40,759 nucleotides of DNA from Gammaproteobacteria bacterium (GTDB lineage: Bacteria; Pseudomonadota; Gammaproteobacteria; GCA-2400775): assembly GCA_016765075.1 (NCBI GenBank), contig JAESQP010000090.1, forward strand, positions 1-40,759, given 5' to 3'. This document shows, one piece after another, positions 23,445 through 40,759 of this stretch. Below the pieces are notes generated by a model. It had not been told where the DNA came from. It was given only the letters and a program-made list of their open reading frames with translations, and ran no database searches. The translations under genes and the position numbers were made by a program. Numbering within the stretch: position 1 is the stretch's first letter; each line of letters opens with the position of its first letter.

Positions 23445-24980
23445 ATGGGTAATATCACTGTAAAAATATGGGCCGTGTTGTTGGCTGGCCTGGGTTTGGT
23501 CATTTTTGCACATAAGCTATTCGATATCGGCTTGCCGCTGAGTCCCGATCAAGATACCGAGGTTTGGACAGTGCAGGCGCGTATCGCATTTGATGGCGGC
23601 GGCGGCCCAGCCAAGCTGGGGTTTCATATCCCCGCCACCACGCCGGGACTATCCAAAATCGACGAAGATTTTATCTCCAGTCGTTTTGGTCTTGCGGTGG
23701 ATAAAGAGGGCGATAACCGCAAAGTAGAGTGGGCTGTACGCAGAGCGCAAGGCCAACAGACGTTATATTATCGTATCTCGGTGACTAAAACTGACACACA
23801 GGTAGGCTGGCCATCAACGCCACGTTTTCCAAATGTGCCTGACTATGAAGAACCCTATGCCTCTGCTATCAAAGCGACTATTGAAGATGTGCGTAGCGAA
23901 TCAGCGGATGTGCAAAGCTATGTGCGCGAATTACTGGAACAGCTCAATTCAGTACAGCCCAATGAAAATATTGAACTGATTCGCGGTCGCGCTCAAAATC
24001 AAACGCAGTGGCTTGGGGAAATTATTAATATCCTCAAAGGCGTACGCATTCCGGCACGTGTTCTCTGGGGGATAGTACTATCAGATGCGGCCAATAACGC
24101 CAATTTACAAGCCTTATTGCAAGTGCATAATGGCAAGCGTTGGCTGACCTTCGACCCTATTAATGGAAGAGTCGGCGTTCCTGAGAATTTTCTTTCCTGG
24201 CGTGTAGGCAACGAACCTTTATTTGTTGTCGAAGGTGGCGGCCCTGTCGATGTCGTTTTCTCGGTGTCTAAAAACTATCGTGAATTAATTGATATTGCAC
24301 GTAAAAACGCAGAGTCCAGTAATTCGCTGTTAGCAGGTTTTTCATTATTGTCATTGCCACTGCAAAGCCAAAATGTCTATCGTTTGCTGATTATGGTACC
24401 TATTGGTGCATTAATTGTTGTGTTTTTCCGTACTTTTATCGGTATTAAGACCTTTGGTACCTTCATGCCTATTTTAATTGCGCTGGCCTTTCGCGAGACC
24501 CAATTACTCTGGGGTATTGTTTTATTTGTCATGATTGTGTCATTGGGTCTCATGCTACGTTTTTATCTTGAGCGAATGCGGCTATTGCTGGTGCCACGCC
24601 TGACATCAATATTGGTGATTGTCGTTATATTGATGGTCATTATTAGCATTATCACCAACGAACTGGGCGTCGATCGCGCGCTATCTGTTGCATTATTTCC
24701 TGTCGTCATTTTGGCCATGACCATCGAGCGCATGTCAATTACCTGGGAAGAAAATGGCGCAAGAGAAGCCATGATGCAAGGGCTGGGTAGTCTGATTGTT
24801 GCCTGTGTTGGTTTCCTTGTGATGAACAACGAAAGTTTGATGTATTTAATGTTTGTTTTTCCAGAACTGCTTTTTATTGTGCTGGCCTTGAGTTTATTAA
24901 TGGGTCGTTACACTGGTTACCGTTTATTTGAATTGCATCGATTCCGCGCCATGGTCACCGACAAAGATAAGACATCGTGA
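23445..24980 (+). CDS. Inactive transglutaminase fused to 7-TM domain, inner-membrane protein
   Basis: 511 residues. One N-terminal membrane helix (IWAVLLAGLGLVIFAHKLF) precedes a periplasmic region of ~270 residues whose second half (LGEIINILKGVRIPARVLWGIVL ... HNGKRWLTFDPINGRVGVPENFLSW) has the transglutaminase fold; the catalytic cysteine position is not a cysteine, so it is expected to be inactive. From about residue 310 a block of seven membrane helices follows (MVPIGALIVVFFRTFIGIKTFGTFMPILIALAFRE and on), the PF14402 domain. It likely binds a peptide or amino-acid ligand for the ATP-grasp partner. Its 3' end overlaps the ligase by 4 bp. Confidence 0.88.
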   Translation: MGNITVKIWAVLLAGLGLVIFAHKLFDIGLPLSPDQDTEVWTVQARIAFDGGGGPAKLGFHIPATTPGLSKIDEDFISSRFGLAVDKEGDNRKVEWAVRRAQGQQTLYYRISVTKTDTQVGWPSTPRFPNVPDYEEPYASAIKATIEDVRSESADVQSYVRELLEQLNSVQPNENIELIRGRAQNQTQWLGEIINILKGVRIPARVLWGIVLSDAANNANLQALLQVHNGKRWLTFDPINGRVGVPENFLSWRVGNEPLFVVEGGGPVDVVFSVSKNYRELIDIARKNAESSNSLLAGFSLLSLPLQSQNVYRLLIMVPIGALIVVFFRTFIGIKTFGTFMPILIALAFRETQLLWGIVLFVMIVSLGLMLRFYLERMRLLLVPRLTSILVIVVILMVIISIITNELGVDRALSVALFPVVILAMTIERMSITWEENGAREAMMQGLGSLIVACVGFLVMNNESLMYLMFVFPELLFIVLALSLLMGRYTGYRLFELHRFRAMVTDKDKTS

Positions 24981-25915
24981 AATGGTTTGCGACTCCGGGC
25001 CAGTTACGTGGCCAAGGCGTGATGGGGATGAACCAGCGTAATAGCGATTACATTATGCGTTATAACCCGCGCCATCTTTACCCGCTTGTTGATGACAAGG
25101 TGTATACCAAGCGCTTGGCATTGGCAAAAGGTATAGCTGTACCGCCGCTCTACTCTGTACTTGAAATTCAGCATGAGATTAAAGGTCTTGATGCTATGCT
25201 GAAGACGCATCAAGATTTTGTTATGAAGCCCTCACATGGCAGTGGTGGCAACGGCATTCTTGTCGTCGATGGTCGACTTGGTAATCACTATCGCAAAACC
25301 AATGGTGATTTGATCAGTTCGGCAGCCATTGGCCACCATGCCTCTAACATACTCAGTGGCATGTACAGCCTGGGTGGTGCTAATGACCAGGTGTTGATTG
25401 AATACCGTGTTCAGTTCGACCCGTTTTTTTCACACATCAGTTATCAAGGTGTGCCCGATATTCGAGTCATTGTCTTTCGCGGTGTACCGGTTGCCGCGAT
25501 GGTGCGGTTGCCGACACGCGCCTCTGACGGTAAGGCAAACCTGCATCAGGGTGCCATGGGTATTGGTATCGACCTTGTAACGGGGATTAGTAAGGGCGGC
25601 GTCTGTAACGATAGAGCTGTAAGTTGTCATCCTGATACCGGTTATGACACTACCGGAATAAAAATTCCACATTGGGACACCATCATGAAACTCGCTATTC
25701 GCTGTGCTGATACCGTTGGCCTGGGTTATCTCGGTGTTGATATTGTCATGGATCGTGATATGGGACCGTTAATGCTCGAACTCAATGCGCGACCTGGCTT
25801 GAATGTACAGATCGCCAATCAAACGGGCCTATTAAACAACCTGGGTAAAATTGAAAGTCTCGACAAGTTACCCGATTGTGTTGATGCGCGCCTTGCCTTA
25901 GCTAAAGCAGCCTGA
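24977..25915 (+). CDS. Alpha-L-glutamate ligase-like protein (RimK-related ATP-grasp)
   Basis: 312 residues from a GTG that overlaps the preceding stop (GTGA), so translation is coupled. Motifs of the ATP-grasp ST/RimK-related group: GQLRGQGVMGMNQRNSDYI, the ATP-binding lysine and glycine loop VMKPSHGSGGNGILVV, IRVIVFRGVPVAAMVRLPT, and the Mg-binding C-terminal LGVDIVMDRDMGPLMLELNARPGLNVQIAN. It should ligate an amino acid (family name suggests glutamate) to a carboxylate; the acceptor is unknown. Context with the transglutaminase-7TM and retropepsin-like genes matches an amidoligase system predicted from comparative genomics. Confidence 0.9.
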   Translation: MKWFATPGQLRGQGVMGMNQRNSDYIMRYNPRHLYPLVDDKVYTKRLALAKGIAVPPLYSVLEIQHEIKGLDAMLKTHQDFVMKPSHGSGGNGILVVDGRLGNHYRKTNGDLISSAAIGHHASNILSGMYSLGGANDQVLIEYRVQFDPFFSHISYQGVPDIRVIVFRGVPVAAMVRLPTRASDGKANLHQGAMGIGIDLVTGISKGGVCNDRAVSCHPDTGYDTTGIKIPHWDTIMKLAIRCADTVGLGYLGVDIVMDRDMGPLMLELNARPGLNVQIANQTGLLNNLGKIESLDKLPDCVDARLALAKAA

Positions 25916-25928
25916 GTAATAACCGCTA

Positions 25929-26218
25929 TAGTGTAGTGTAATGGATAAAGGGTGCCTATCAGCGTAACGAGAAGCCATTAGCTGCAAGGCGCGTTGCGCA
26001 GAGAATGGCGCGCCCTTTATAAGCAACGCACCAACAGTAGGCGCTTTAGGCGACGCAGCAGATGATGGCTTCTCATTACGCCCGAAGGGAGACCCACAAA
26101 TGACTCAATACTACGTTATAGCCTTTATCAAGGGAACAACCCTTCATTGCAGGCTACGCCTTGTCTTGAGTCATTTGTGGGTCTCTGATAGGTGCCCTTT
26201 ATCCGTTACACCACACTA
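25929..26218. mobile_element. MITE-like element with 34-bp terminal inverted repeats and two internal hairpin arms
   Basis: Terminal repeats 25929-25962 and 26185-26218 pair over 34 bp with three mismatches and both end in TA. Inside, 25962-25978 pairs with 26065-26081 (16 of 17) and 26089-26108 pairs with 26166-26185 (20 of 20). The right arm extends further (TAGCCT/AGGCTA and AAGGG/CCCTT). The 290-bp unit has no ORF. The fold is an outer stem opening to a three-way junction with two long arms. The boundary TA dinucleotides fit a TA target duplication of the Tc1/mariner/IS630 type, but the flanks are only two bases and that part is inference. Confidence 0.78.
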
Positions 26219-26250
26219 GGGAATCTCTGATCAATTCATGGAACACAATC

Positions 26251-27576
26251 TTGCGATCACTTGTTAGCCTGATATTGCTATTTTCTCTTTGTTTTGGCAG
26301 CCCTGCGTTAGTCATTGCGGAGGATGTGCTCATCGCAACCAACGATATTAATGATGACAAGGTAGCGCAAGCTGCTGTCGCGCCCTCTGTTGACCTGAAA
26401 GACATTGCTCCGCTGCCAGTACCGGTAGAAGTGGCACCACAAGATGCTGGCATCACCGAACAACCAACGCCCATTGAAAGTAAACCAGATGAAGCAAATA
26501 AAGATGATGTTGCGCGGCAGGCAGATAGCGAAGATAAATTTATTATCCTCGGTTCTGAAGTCACGCCAGGCATTGCCACACGCTTGGCCTGGTCGCCTAA
26601 TGTGGGCATCAGTGGACTTAATCTGCCAACACCCGTATTAGTTATTAATGGCAAGCATCGTGGCAAAACACTGTGTTTGACCGCCGCCATTCATGGTGAT
26701 GAGTTAAACGGTATCGAGATAGTACGCCGTGTAATGTACGACATCGACCCCAAAAAACTCCACGGAAGAATTATTGGTGTACCCATTGTCAATCTGCAAG
26801 GCTTTCAGCGCGCCTCGCGCTACTTACCTGATCGTCGCGATCTCAATCGTTTTTTCCCTGGCGATCCTCAAGGCAGCTCAGCTTCACGTATTGCACACTC
26901 TTTGTTTACCGAAGTGATTCAACATTGTGATGCGTTGATTGATTTACATACCGGCTCTTTTCGCCGCACAAACCTACCTCAGTTGCGGGCGAATATGTTA
27001 AACCCCGATGTGGCCGAATTTAGTGAAGGTTTTGATGATATTGCCGTCGTCCATAGTGAGGGCAGCCCAGGCATGTTACGTGTTGCCTCATTGCAGCAGG
27101 GCATTGTTGCCGTCACACTTGAAGTCGGTGAATCATTGCGCTTGCAAGAAAGTGAAGTAAAAGCCGGTGTTAAAAGTATTAACGCCCTGCTTGAGCGTGA
27201 AGACATGTATTCACGCTTGTTTACCTGGGGTGAACCAAAGCCGGTTTATTATCAATCACATTGGGTTCGTGCAGCGCAGGGTGGTATTTTATTAAGCCGT
27301 ATTGAGTTAGGTGATTCCGTTGATAAAGGCGATATTCTTGGTAGCATTATCGATCCTATCACTAACGAAGAGTCCAAGCTTCGTGCGTCGTACGATGGCC
27401 GTATTATCGGCATGGCGGTTAATCAAGTCGTTATGCCGGGTTTTGCTGCATACCATATAGGCATTCGCGCCTCGGAAGAGACCGTTGTTGCTGAAGAGGA
27501 GATGGCTATACAGGAAAGCGATATTAAGATACAGCAGCGCGACAATACGATTCAGGCGATCGATCCTGAAGAATAG
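26251..27576 (+). CDS. Exported AspA/AstE-like zinc carboxypeptidase (succinylglutamate desuccinylase/aspartoacylase family)
   Basis: 441 residues starting at TTG (no ATG in frame; weak ribosome binding site, which may reflect the MITE just upstream). The signal peptide (SLVSLILLFSLCFGSPALVIA) is followed by a ~90-residue acidic/Pro-rich linker and the catalytic domain: AAIHGDELNGIE supplies His148 and Glu151, LIDLHTGS supplies His233. The C-terminal ~80 residues (QGGILLSRIELGDSVDKGDILGSI ... DGRIIGMAVNQVVMPG) form the barrel-sandwich domain usual for the family. It ends the ATP-grasp cluster; a role in hydrolysing the ligase's amide product in the periplasm is inference. Confidence 0.85.
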   Translation: MRSLVSLILLFSLCFGSPALVIAEDVLIATNDINDDKVAQAAVAPSVDLKDIAPLPVPVEVAPQDAGITEQPTPIESKPDEANKDDVARQADSEDKFIILGSEVTPGIATRLAWSPNVGISGLNLPTPVLVINGKHRGKTLCLTAAIHGDELNGIEIVRRVMYDIDPKKLHGRIIGVPIVNLQGFQRASRYLPDRRDLNRFFPGDPQGSSASRIAHSLFTEVIQHCDALIDLHTGSFRRTNLPQLRANMLNPDVAEFSEGFDDIAVVHSEGSPGMLRVASLQQGIVAVTLEVGESLRLQESEVKAGVKSINALLEREDMYSRLFTWGEPKPVYYQSHWVRAAQGGILLSRIELGDSVDKGDILGSIIDPITNEESKLRASYDGRIIGMAVNQVVMPGFAAYHIGIRASEETVVAEEEMAIQESDIKIQQRDNTIQAIDPEE

Positions 27577-33710: not shown

Positions 33711-36700
33711 CTAGAATTTACCGTAGTAGCCTTCTTTCAAGGCATCGTAAAGATTGGCGGCTGAATGTGTTTCGCCATCATAGTCAATCTCTTCATTACC
33801 TTTCACGCTGACTTCTGTGCCATCTTCAAGCTTAAAGGTGTAAGTGGTATTTTCCAGATCTTGTTCTTTGACCAGTACACCCTGGAACACTTCGGGATTG
33901 AAGCGGAAGGTGGTGCACCCTTTCAGTCCACGTTGATAGGCGTAGATATAAATGTCTTTAAATTCTTCATAAGGAAAGTCGGTGGGTACGTTGGCCGTTT
34001 TTGAAATGGATGAATCTATCCAGTATTGCGCGGTAGCTTGCACATCGACATGTTGTTTGGGTTTGATATCATCGGCCGAGATAAAGTAATCAGGCAGTTT
34101 TTCATTGGCCTGTTCCGAATAAGGCATTGCCTTGTCATTGACTAATTCACGGTAGGCCAATAGTTCAAAGGAATAGACATCAACTTTTTCTTTACTCTTT
34201 TTACCTTCGCGAATAATGTTACGTGAATAGTGATGGGCAAAGCTGGGTTCAATACCGTTACTGGCGTTGTTGGCCAACGACAGAGAGATAGTGCCGGTGG
34301 GTGCAATGGAGCTGTGATGAGTAAAGCGTGCGCCCACTTCTGCCAATTGTTCTACCAGTTCGGGCGCAACTTCGGCAATGCGTTGCATATAGCGGCTGTA
34401 TTTTGCGTGTAGCACTTTACCTTTAATAACATCGCCGACTTGCCAGCCATCTTTAGTCATTTCTGGGCGTTTACGCAGCATAGCTTCGTTGACAACGAAG
34501 TCTTTTTGTAAAATAGGTGCCGGGCCTTTTTCGCGTGCGAGTTCTAATGCAGCATGCCATCCGGTGATGGCGAGTTCTTTGGTGATACGTTCGGCAAACT
34601 CTAGGGAATCATCGGCACCATATTTCATGCGCAGCATGGTCATGGTTGAGCCAAGACCCAGATAACCCATACCATGGCGACGCTTGCTAATAATTTCGTG
34701 ACTTTGCTTTTCTAAAGGCAGGCCATTGATTTCAACGACGTTATCGAGCATACGCGTGAAAATAGCTACGACAGCTTTATATTCATCCCAATCAAAATAG
34801 GCGTCTTCAGTAAACGCTTTGCGGACAAATTTAGTTAGGTTAATTGAACCGAGCAAGCATGAGCCATAAGGTGGCAAAGGTTGCTCGCCGCAATTGTGTG
34901 CATGAATACCATTGGCATCAAATGTATTGATACCTGGAACTTGTATATCGTAAACATCTTCAGTCGCATCAGGGCTTATGGATTTAACGCGAGCAAAAAA
35001 ATGTTCCTGATTTATCTTACGTTTATAGGCCTTTAAGTTTAACGCTAATTTTGTAGATTTTTCTGTATCGGCAAAGTCAATCAATTGCTTAAAAACCAGC
35101 ATATTATCGCCTGAAATAACAAGTTCATGCTGTGGTTTTATCTGGTAATCAGCAGTACCCCCTTTGCCATTCGGCAGTTCTTTAATCTGGGTTTTTCTTC
35201 GATTACGATAAATGGTTGATACCATACCCAAACGTAAAAGCATACGTTGTACCGCTTTTAGCCGAGGTAAATCAGATTGGGCAAGACGGATACTAACGCC
35301 TTTTTGCAGATCGCCCTGAACCGAACCATCTGCATCAAAGAAGCCCTTTAGAAAACCTTGATAAAAGTCGCTGGAGGTGTTTTCCAAACATTTGCTAATA
35401 CATTTGTCGCCTGGCTTCATACCCAGCTCTTGCGCCAGTTTTTTTAAACCAACCAGTTTTATACGATATTCGTTTCTTCCCTTCACTTCCGACCAGCCAT
35501 TAAAATCAGATCGCTTTTTGATTTCAGCCACTGCCTCCAAAGCTGTTTGCATAACAGCCTCTACACCCAAATTTATAGACTGGCCATTGACAACTTGTGC
35601 TGTTTTCCATACAGAAAGTACTGCAGTGTCTTTATTTAGTGTGCCGTCGCCTATTAGCAAGCCCATTAGATAGCCTTGATTTTTAGTATAACGACCAGGC
35701 CAGACAGGGCTATTTCGATGATTATTTAATAAAATCTTATCGCCTGCTGTTAATTTCTCGACTTCGCACCAATCTGTTTCGGTAACATAACGAGTATGCT
35801 TGATAATTCTTTTGACACGATGATCAGCTGTCAGGCGAAGACTATAACCTTCTTCAGTTTGTAACCTAACGGTAGCTTTAGTTGCGGTTTTGAAAAAACC
35901 TTCGGCACCCGATGAATGAAGCTTTCCATCCACCTGAATTTCTACAGACTGTCCCAGTAACTGACTAACCTGACGTGGGCCTTGTGAAGTTTGCACCCAA
36001 GTGTCGCCTGTTACACAAGGATTGGTGGCACGCACGTCTTCGCAAAACCAATTGTTGTTCATGTCATTAACATTGTCGATGAGGATAAAGCCAGGCTCAG
36101 CAAAGTCATAGGTCGCTGCCATGATGGCATCCCACAAGCGACGGGCAGGCAGTGTTTTATAGATTTGGCAGGCAACCAGACCTGCCTCGCTACAGGCATA
36201 GCTGCTGTGGCTAGGCCACTCGCGCCAGATAATATTGCTATTGTTTTCAAGGTCGATATTGTCAGCGTTGACCTCTTCTCGTGTCAGTGGGAAGGCTAGC
36301 TGCCAATCACCCTCTTCGAGCACGGCCTTCATAAAGTCATCGGTGATTAACAGCGACAGGTTGAATTGGCGTAAGCGGCCGTCTTCGCGCTTGGCGCGAA
36401 TAAAATCCAGCACATCGGGGTGCCCAACATCAAACGTCCCCATTTGGGCGCCCCGTCTGCCGCCAGCGGAGGAGACGGTAAAACACATCTTGTCGTAAAT
36501 ATCCATAAAAGAAAGCGGCCCAGAGGTGTAGGCGCCGGCGCCAGTGACATAAGCTCCTTTGGGCCGCAAGGTGGAAAACTCGTAACCAATACCACAACCG
36601 GCCTTTAGCGTCAGGCCAGCTTCGTGAACCATGCTGAGGATGCCATTCATGGAATCTTCGATGGTGCCAGAAACGGTACAGTTAATGGTTGAGGTGGCAG

Positions 36701-36989
36701 GTTTGTGAGCCAGTGCGCCGGCGTTAGAGAGTATGCGTCCGGCAGGGATAGCACCGTGGTGCAGTGCCCAGAGGAAACTTTCATACCATTCAGCACGTTT
36801 TTCTTCGCTGCTTTCGACATCGGCCAAGGCGCGTGCGACACGTTGATAGGTGCCATCTATATCGGCATCGACGTTGTCGCCGTTGCGGGTTTTAAGGCGG
36901 TATTTTTTGTCCCAGATGTCCGCTGAGGCAGCCTGCATGGGAATCGTTTTATTCGTTGCAACGACTTTAAGTTGAACCTGCTCGCTCAC
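33711..36989 (-). CDS. nrdJa: Adenosylcobalamin-dependent ribonucleotide reductase NrdJa, interrupted by an intein
   Basis: 1092 residues from a GTG at 36989 that has TAGGGG seven bases upstream; the ATG at 37040 (1109 residues) lies inside an NrdR-like box and is less likely. The N-terminal extein has STINCTVSGTIEDSMNG, KAGCGIGYEFSTLRPKGA and SSAGGRRGAQMGTFDVGHPD, and the C-terminal extein LPPYGSCLLGSINLTKF, THHSSIAPTGTISLSLANNASNGIEPSF and QRGLKGCTTFRF, all class II RNR landmarks. After removal of the 375-residue intein 717 residues remain, matching NrdJa. The active-site radical cysteine is the first residue after the intein (NP-C-GEQPL). It converts ribonucleoside diphosphates to deoxyribonucleotides without oxygen dependence; a co-transcribed NrdJb follows. 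Confidence 0.93.
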   Translation of the reverse strand: MSEQVQLKVVATNKTIPMQAASADIWDKKYRLKTRNGDNVDADIDGTYQRVARALADVESSEEKRAEWYESFLWALHHGAIPAGRILSNAGALAHKPATSTINCTVSGTIEDSMNGILSMVHEAGLTLKAGCGIGYEFSTLRPKGAYVTGAGAYTSGPLSFMDIYDKMCFTVSSAGGRRGAQMGTFDVGHPDVLDFIRAKREDGRLRQFNLSLLITDDFMKAVLEEGDWQLAFPLTREEVNADNIDLENNSNIIWREWPSHSSYACSEAGLVACQIYKTLPARRLWDAIMAATYDFAEPGFILIDNVNDMNNNWFCEDVRATNPCVTGDTWVQTSQGPRQVSQLLGQSVEIQVDGKLHSSGAEGFFKTATKATVRLQTEEGYSLRLTADHRVKRIIKHTRYVTETDWCEVEKLTAGDKILLNNHRNSPVWPGRYTKNQGYLMGLLIGDGTLNKDTAVLSVWKTAQVVNGQSINLGVEAVMQTALEAVAEIKKRSDFNGWSEVKGRNEYRIKLVGLKKLAQELGMKPGDKCISKCLENTSSDFYQGFLKGFFDADGSVQGDLQKGVSIRLAQSDLPRLKAVQRMLLRLGMVSTIYRNRRKTQIKELPNGKGGTADYQIKPQHELVISGDNMLVFKQLIDFADTEKSTKLALNLKAYKRKINQEHFFARVKSISPDATEDVYDIQVPGINTFDANGIHAHNCGEQPLPPYGSCLLGSINLTKFVRKAFTEDAYFDWDEYKAVVAIFTRMLDNVVEINGLPLEKQSHEIISKRRHGMGYLGLGSTMTMLRMKYGADDSLEFAERITKELAITGWHAALELAREKGPAPILQKDFVVNEAMLRKRPEMTKDGWQVGDVIKGKVLHAKYSRYMQRIAEVAPELVEQLAEVGARFTHHSSIAPTGTISLSLANNASNGIEPSFAHHYSRNIIREGKKSKEKVDVYSFELLAYRELVNDKAMPYSEQANEKLPDYFISADDIKPKQHVDVQATAQYWIDSSISKTANVPTDFPYEEFKDIYIYAYQRGLKGCTTFRFNPEVFQGVLVKEQDLENTTYTFKLEDGTEVSVKGNEEIDYDGETHSAANLYDALKEGYYGKF
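34893..36017 (-). other. Intein with LAGLIDADG homing endonuclease in NrdJa
   Basis: 375 residues, from Cys1 (CVTGDTWVQT, block A) to the terminal HN (block G: GIHAHN), inserted between NP and CGEQPL; the +1 residue is Cys. Block B is LRLTADHRV with the TxxH motif (intein residues 63-66). Two LAGLIDADG motifs occur as LMGLLIGDGTLN (118-128) and GFFDADGSV (225-233). Block F is DVYDIQVPGINTFDANGIHAHN. All residues needed for splicing (Cys1, TxxH, penultimate His, terminal Asn, Cys+1) are present, and both endonuclease acidic residues seem kept, so it looks complete. Confidence 0.93.
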
Positions 36990-37031
36990 AAATGCGCCCC
37001 TAGTTTTTGTTGTTACAGAAGAATTAAGAAA

Positions 37032-37047
37032 CCACAACATATTGTGG
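37032..37047. promoter_or_regulatory. NrdR-box-like palindrome upstream of nrdJa
   Basis: CCACAACATATTGTGG is a near-perfect dyad that fits the NrdR box (consensus close to acaCwaTATaTwGtgt). It is 43-58 bp upstream of the GTG start. A second box at the usual 31-32 bp spacing is not seen; only a weaker match occurs at 37185-37200. Supports the shorter nrdJa start. Confidence 0.6.
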
Positions 37048-40238: not shown

Positions 40239-40759
40239 TCAGGGGTTGGTTTGGTTGAGATAGACGCGGTTGGCCTGTCCCAAGTTACCCGCGACCAGGT
40301 CGAGGTCGCCGTCATCATCGATATCCGCCAGTGCCACAGAGCGGGTGAAATTGGCGCCCAGCGCCTGCGTGCTGTCAGTAAAGCTGCCGCTGCCGTCGTT
40401 GGTATAGACGCGGTTGGCCTGTCCAAAATTCCCCGCCACCAGGTCAAGGTCGCCGTCGCCATCAATATCCGCCAGTGCCACAGAGGTGGTGTCATTGGTG
40501 CCCAGCGCCTGCGTGCTGACAGTAAAGGTGCCCATGCCGTCGTTGACATAGGCTCGGTTGGCCTCTCCAAAATTCCCCGCCACCAGGTCAAGGTCGCCGT
40601 CACCATCAATATCCGCCAGTGCCACAGATTGGGTGTTATTGGCGCCCAGCGCCTGCGTGCTGACAGTAAAATTGCCGCTGCCGTCGTTGACATAGACGCG
40701 GTTGGGCTGTGCATTATTGCCCACGACCAGGTCAAGGTCACCGTCGCCATCAATATCCG
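40239..40759 (-). CDS. FG-GAP/VCBS-repeat protein (5' part outside window)
   Basis: Frame open to the window edge; codons before the GTG at 40724 keep the repeat (DIDGDGDLDLVVGN), so the gene begins beyond the window. Three and a half near-identical repeats of 48 residues, each with ALADIDGDGDLDLVAGN, NRVYVNDGSGNFTVST and QALG, are typical of FG-GAP/VCBS beta-propeller repeats; DxDGDGDxD is a calcium-binding loop. It ends in VYLNQTNP, so no C-terminal anchor or sorting domain. Probably a secreted or surface adhesion-type protein. The last unit has DIDDDGD instead of DIDGDGD. Confidence 0.9.
   Translation of the reverse strand, partial: DIDGDGDLDLVVGNNAQPNRVYVNDGSGNFTVSTQALGANNTQSVALADIDGDGDLDLVAGNFGEANRAYVNDGMGTFTVSTQALGTNDTTSVALADIDGDGDLDLVAGNFGQANRVYTNDGSGSFTDSTQALGANFTRSVALADIDDDGDLDLVAGNLGQANRVYLNQTNP
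40327..40759 (-). repeat. 144-bp tandem repeats inside the FG-GAP gene
   Basis: GCCAGTGCCACAGA (plus strand) recurs at 40327, 40471 and 40615, exactly 144 bp apart, with most other bases conserved. The high DNA-level identity shows recent expansion or homogenisation. Confidence 0.9.

Follow-up and report, generated by a model that had tools for sequence, protein, structure and literature searches.

A MITE-type element between an ATP-grasp ligase gene and an AspA-like gene of a gammaproteobacterium carries a conserved two-hairpin cassette

Between the gene for a RimK-like ATP-grasp ligase and an AstE/AspA-like gene of a gammaproteobacterium lies a short stretch of DNA that can fold on itself, which raises the question whether a mobile element or a native part of the operon is located here and in which form its hairpins are selected. 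The locus was analysed within a stretch of 40,759 nucleotides, hereafter referred to as the window. An earlier note on this DNA had placed a MITE-like element between these two genes, the latter starting at TTG, and the gene positions obtained here agree with this (Table 1). The element proper was delimited to positions 25931-26216, i.e., 286 bp with 29-nt ends that are identical at 25 of 29 positions. When the outer TA is included, the terminal inverted repeat (25929-25962/26185-26218) comprises 34 nt, so that the length and place given earlier hold, its identity having to be lowered from 31/34 to 30/34 (88%). The left arm, described earlier as a stem of 17 bp (16/17), is present, its stem being longer and less perfect (24 nt, 88%), and the 20-bp perfect stem ascribed to the right arm sits inside a 23-nt repeat of 96% identity (26089-26111/26163-26185). 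Folding of the element yielded a minimum free energy of -155.1 kcal/mol as compared to -82.0 +/- 4.6 kcal/mol in 200 dinucleotide shuffles (z = -15.8), which documents the strong foldback of the whole unit. The three-way junction proposed for it has to be revised, as positions 26081-26089 form a conserved mini-hairpin of their own and the junction is hence strictly four-way. No transposase ORF was found within the element, the length of which is below the 500 bp used as MITE criterion.

Table 1. Features of the element and its neighbouring genes (positions in the window).
Feature	Position	Strand	Basis or remark
Upstream gene, ATPgrasp_ST / RimK-like ATP-grasp	24977..25915	+	outside element
Left target-duplication copy, TA	25929..25930	.	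context A-TA
Left terminal repeat, 29 nt, GTGTAGTGTAATGGATAAAGGGTGCCTAT	25931..25959	+	inverted-repeat search; first base-to-CAG spacing in relatives
CAG opening the conserved cassette	25960..25962	+	invariant in 37 aligned elements
Arm 1, hairpin module	25962..26081	+	covariance-model match 25962-26056, E 2.9e-12
Arm 1 lower stem	25962-25985/26058-26081	+	box CAAGGC from 25985
22-nt insert CCAACAGTAGGCGCTTTAGGCG	26031..26052	+	at CA^A of arm 1 3' box
Central mini-hairpin CCCGAAGGG, at junction	26081..26089	.	alignment; motif count
Arm 2, same module inverted, module strand minus	26089..26185	-	covariance-model match 26088-26185 on minus strand, E 1.4e-20
CTG closing the cassette, pairs with CAG	26185..26187	+	alignment and predicted structure
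Right terminal repeat, 29 nt, minus strand reads GTGTGGTGTAACGGATAAAGGGCACCTAT	26188..26216	-	
Right target-duplication copy, TA	26217..26218	.	context TA-G
Downstream gene, AstE/AspA-like, TTG start	26251..27576	+	outside element

A BLAST search of the own genome (2.0 Mb, 163 contigs) revealed three more full copies with 84-86% identity, one partial copy and several weaker relatives of the element. The motif CGCCCGAAGGGAG occurs 21 times in this genome when at most one mismatch is allowed (reversed control, 0), and most of these sites are foldbacks of like design whose stem sequences are quite different. The orthologous ATP-grasp/AspA-like intergenic region is empty in the two closest relatives, both uncultured Gammaproteobacteria (L060 and L061; 85% and 82% protein identity, at which a base-exact empty site is beyond resolution), and two relatives without the element have an ATG at the position aligned with the TTG start of the AspA-like gene. 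Considering the several copies in the own genome and the empty orthologous sites in two relatives, the element in the window is mobile and of MITE type; being neither a single copy nor bound to one site in all relatives, it is what the earlier note had taken it for, with a TA duplication in a CTAG-like target adding to copies and empty sites.

From many genomes, about 56 related elements were delimited, which range from 261 to 290 bp and follow a common plan, namely a 29-nt end, CAG, arm 1, CCC-NNN-GGG, arm 2, CTG and a second 29-nt end, whereby the spacing from the first base to CAG amounts to 29 nt in 46 and to 28 nt in seven of 53 relatives. TA is found at both ends in 27 of the 56 elements, as it is in the window, at one end in another 27 and at neither end in two. 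End frequencies let one expect about 29, 23 and 4, respectively, and the asymmetry of intact TA ends hence fits independent decay. Of the 27 elements with both TAs, 19 have the context C-TA..TA-G. At three loci (L271, L272 and L276) TA alone is duplicated and not the whole CTAG, for which reason a 4-bp, IS5-like CTAG duplication was dropped for this subfamily set. Some genomes witnessed recent amplification, as documented by 67 and 93 end matches versus 0-1 in the control, with contigs stopping inside elements. No BLAST match was returned in plasmids or phages with the window element as query, or in E. coli genomes with the L053 element. Among further copies, one that CTAG flanks is shortened by deletion to 104 bp (L262:201-304), and another, of 450 bp, has its terminal repeat interrupted by what looks like a second element with inverted repeats (L260:321-770). 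A different foldback family with ends CTAG|GGGGCGTTCTCAAT (L056, L163 and L041) abuts or neighbours elements in the genus and holds similar CAAGGCG/CAACGCC boxes.

As to the insertion sites, 28 of 41 gene pairs that flank elements are co-directional, as compared to 43 of 56 for the background at those loci, both based on crude ORF calls, and within this limit operons are neither preferred nor avoided. No bias towards convergent (terminator) sites was found among the element loci, which sets them apart from the Pseudomonas fluorescens repeats, for which a tail-to-tail bias was reported (PMC2718517). To the right of the window element (26219-26240), the flank GGGAATCTCTGATCAATTC is similar to the terminus of a different repeat (CTAGGGAACCTCTGATTAATTC in L149), and judged by this likeness a single CTAG site may be common to two elements there. 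Elsewhere in the window, a ribonucleotide reductase ORF on the minus strand (33711-37040, 1109 aa) contains, as read from its translation only, an apparent intein-like segment (CVTGDTWV ... HAHNCGEQ), and 218-nt repeats with a spacing of 144 bp, coding for repeated DGDGDLDLVAGN-type sequence, occupy the window's end (40254-40759).

The next question concerns the enzyme that moves the element. IS630/Tc1-mariner elements insert at TA, and for the IS630 preference for TA in CTAG the work of Tenzen & Ohtsubo 1991 is cited (both according to PMC2170065). A search for IS630 transposase genes (DDE_3) in five genomes of the genus found none; element-rich genomes of other families do carry such genes. 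Two IS630 transposase loci sit between terminal repeats flanked by CTAG, with ends CTAGTACATCGACC.. and CTAGTACTCC.., their ORFs belonging to the IS630 family by NCBIfam NF033545 and Pfam DDE_3; both ORFs are split into pieces and these two copies may be decayed. Their ends are identical to element ends at 25-26 of 29 positions, the best of 500 shuffle sets reaching 20. These matches concern subfamilies B and D, the own-genome element L040 being among the matching elements, whereas the end type of the window element (subfamily A) agrees with the IS630 ends found at 6-11 of 29 positions, and a transposase matching the ends of this subfamily was not found. As a consequence, the IS630 assignment of the window subfamily rests on the TA duplication and the shared architecture. 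The IS630-like mobilisation proposed before is thus backed by the ends of other subfamilies and lacks a parent for that of the window; IS630-type mobilisation in trans would be the best mechanism for the element. Several other candidates were discarded. A putative autonomous element in G103:C147 turned out to be two unrelated ends flanking ordinary genes, the end at L285 points away from the transposase fragment, and REP/BIME mobilisation by RAYT was rejected given that the Y1_Tnp genes of the own genome have no element alongside. The latter two genes, which are of Y1_Tnp/RAYT type (C135 and C67; L189 and L195) and unlinked to the element, have GGGGTCAGA-type repeats around them.

For the interior, 37 elements were aligned nearly gap-free. 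RNAalifold predicted 97 pairs, of which 83 show compensatory double changes. Paired cells amount to 95.6% as compared to 68.6% after shuffling of partners and 32-41% after a shift of 1-3 columns, and the covariation score to 0.699 versus 0.188 (shuffled) and about 0.1 (shifted), values obtained on the alignment from which the structure was derived, the margin being very large. Essentially, the structure is conserved while the sequence is rewritten. A further signature comes from the mismatches. In 66 non-redundant lower stems, with the module strand taken as reference, G.T and A.C mismatches stand at 77:32, and in 35 distinct outer stems at 28:34; the G.T excess is therefore confined to the arms and to the module strand (per-arm sign test, p = 0.02), albeit shared ancestry may inflate this bias. 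Of 68 arms, 56 also fold more stably on the module strand when RNA parameters are used and 50 when DNA parameters are used, a difference to which the shared boxes may partly contribute. Stems maintained purely as palindromes of double-stranded DNA would be expected to show both mismatches equally often, so that the 77:32 in the arms argues for selection of a single strand. Considering this, a folded single strand, be it RNA or ssDNA, is suggested to be the selected form of the arms, and the claim that selection on structure goes beyond ordinary MITE ends gains strong support from the compensatory changes and the G.T bias. From these patterns, a double-stranded role as transposase sites is inferred for the ends, and a present or past role as folded single strand for each arm.

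Both arms are variants of one module, since arm 2, when reverse-complemented, aligns with arm 1. Their common length is about 97 nt and the boxes CAAGGCGC, GCAGG.AATGG, CCTTG.CAAG and GCAACGC are common to both. When Pseudomonadota were searched with R1, a covariance model describing the arm (cut-off E <= 0.001), 98 of 398 genomes and 58 of 213 genera had matches, among them complete genomes in a single contig and members of other classes. Neighbouring plus and minus matches lie about 7 nt apart, which identifies the two-arm plan as the common form. The cassette occurs between IS630-like ends (L297, L300-L303 and L311), between ends GGGCCTGTTGACGTTT with CTAG (L310 and relatives), which by eye are like IS5-family element ends (L187), and between several further end types; besides the IS630 and IS5 resemblance, none was traced to transposases. 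Relatives are also found, by BLAST and unannotated, on named plasmids of Azotobacter, Halomonas, Pseudomonas, Pseudoalteromonas and Photobacterium. Given this recurrence between different ends, the hairpins themselves appear to be maintained. Since arm 2 is inverted, one correctly oriented module is always present on either strand. The 22-nt insert of arm 1 is absent from many relatives, and identical inserts are present in genomes of different bacterial families. Apart from the window, the insert was observed at L021, L044, L266, L267, L268, L270, L261, L018 and L028; CCAACAGTAGGCGCTTTAGGCG (25-mer CACCAACAGTAGGCGCTTTAGGCGA) sometimes replaces the whole arm tip, and near copies exist in different surroundings as well. 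IMG/VR lacks the 25-mer. A likeness of the module to integron attC sites, i.e., an imperfect strand-specific hairpin, was considered and set aside; the insert is located at CA^A rather than at the attC crossover.

Based on these findings, the element is with high probability a non-autonomous MITE-type element with IS630/Tc1-mariner-type ends that carries a two-hairpin cassette selected as folded single strand. In the suggested mechanism, the 29-nt ends would be bound in double-stranded form by an IS630-family transposase supplied in trans, which would cut the element out and place it at another TA within CTAG. The two inverted module copies around CCC-NNN-GGG that lie inside these ends would be selected as folded single strand, whereby the inverted duplication would ensure that either strand or transcript holds one correctly oriented module. 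What speaks against this explanation is the failure to find DDE_3 in five genomes of the genus together with the poor match of the element's own ends, the lack of one TA in about half of the copies and the fact that template switching in palindromes also yields compensatory changes without functional selection.

The last point leads to an ordinary IS630-derived MITE, the interior of which is functionless and the stems of which are self-corrected by intrastrand template switching or conversion. This would agree with an outer stem that covaries as strongly as the arms and shows no G.T preference; it is rendered unlikely by the unpaired boxes and the module length being kept across the phylum, by the G.T bias in the arms only and on one module strand, and by the same cassette residing between different terminal repeats. 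If a single strand is selected, the hairpins could, by analogy with Correia/NEMIS and ERIC, belong to an RNA element whose transcript exposes one sense hairpin and alters RNase III/E processing or host-operon termination. Such a role would be in line with the strand-specific G.T bias and with elements that are close to genes, follow the local gene-pair orientation and do not avoid operons, yet each transcript holds one sense and one antisense module, convergent sites are not favoured and Rfam gave no match, and this variant is given a low probability as well. Folded single-stranded DNA, to which a host factor might for instance bind during replication or transposition, is likewise considered rather improbable as a separate explanation. 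It would account for the greater stability of the module strand with DNA parameters too, for the combination of the cassette with several transposon ends and for the central loop, which is often GNA, a triloop type stable in DNA, whereas the Y1/RAYT genes of the own genome are unlinked to the copies. A native, immobile structured element of the operon, though neatly placed between two conserved genes, is practically refuted by the empty site in two relatives and the repeats elsewhere in the genome.

As an IS630-type MITE, the element is of a known kind. According to PMC2229807, RUP of Streptococcus pneumoniae (IS630-Spn1) resembles it in its TA duplication, IS630-shared ends, lack of an ORF and intergenic location, and differs by its 107 bp and 9-bp contiguous ends from a family of 261-290 bp with 29-nt ends and a phylum-wide two-arm interior. 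The same paper describes Correia/NEMIS and ERIC/IRU as TA-flanked MITEs with strong RNA foldback, like the element, and most bacterial repeat RNAs as one stem loop that runs from end to end and lacks arms and linker, so that the two-armed element is set apart from Correia/NEMIS, ERIC and RUP by their descriptions. ERIC and NEMIS influence the stability or processing of mRNA. In CIR of Caulobacter and Brucella two long inverted repeats likewise form two arms; as described there, CIR is devoid of terminal inverted repeats, in contrast to the IS630-type ends, inverted module pair and CCC-NNN-GGG centre found here. High-copy intergenic repeats are also known from P. fluorescens (R0, R2, R200 and others; R200 being 320 bp and R26 352 bp), R0 and R2 having inverted repeats of resident IS elements, as stated in PMC2718517. 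The cassette is present in Pseudomonas records. Near the window element Rfam gave no match at E <= 1 and the relatives stayed below the gathering threshold, a single miRNA match among them (26.9 bits versus a gathering score of 60) being due to chance. An earlier description of the cassette was not found in open PubMed Central papers and may exist elsewhere.

MITEs are usually seen as shrunken IS with a meaningless middle, whereas here the middle is conserved, phylum-wide, and the ends vary. We tentatively entertain the idea, somewhat short of favouring it, that the cassette is an autonomous evolutionary unit, i.e., a strand-specific RNA or ssDNA module whose inverted duplicate would work in either insertion direction and which transposable elements with ends of unrelated transposase families (IS630, IS5-like and others) would share across Pseudomonadota. 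Its task would be identical in each of them, for example attracting a conserved host factor or keeping an insertion from harming the interrupted operon. HK022-put-like antitermination is only an idea. If the cassette is functional, it would represent a widespread structured element missing from Rfam, present in many genomes and breaking assemblies in some, and the covariance model together with the conserved boxes makes both a host factor and the tolerance of insertions in operons directly testable.
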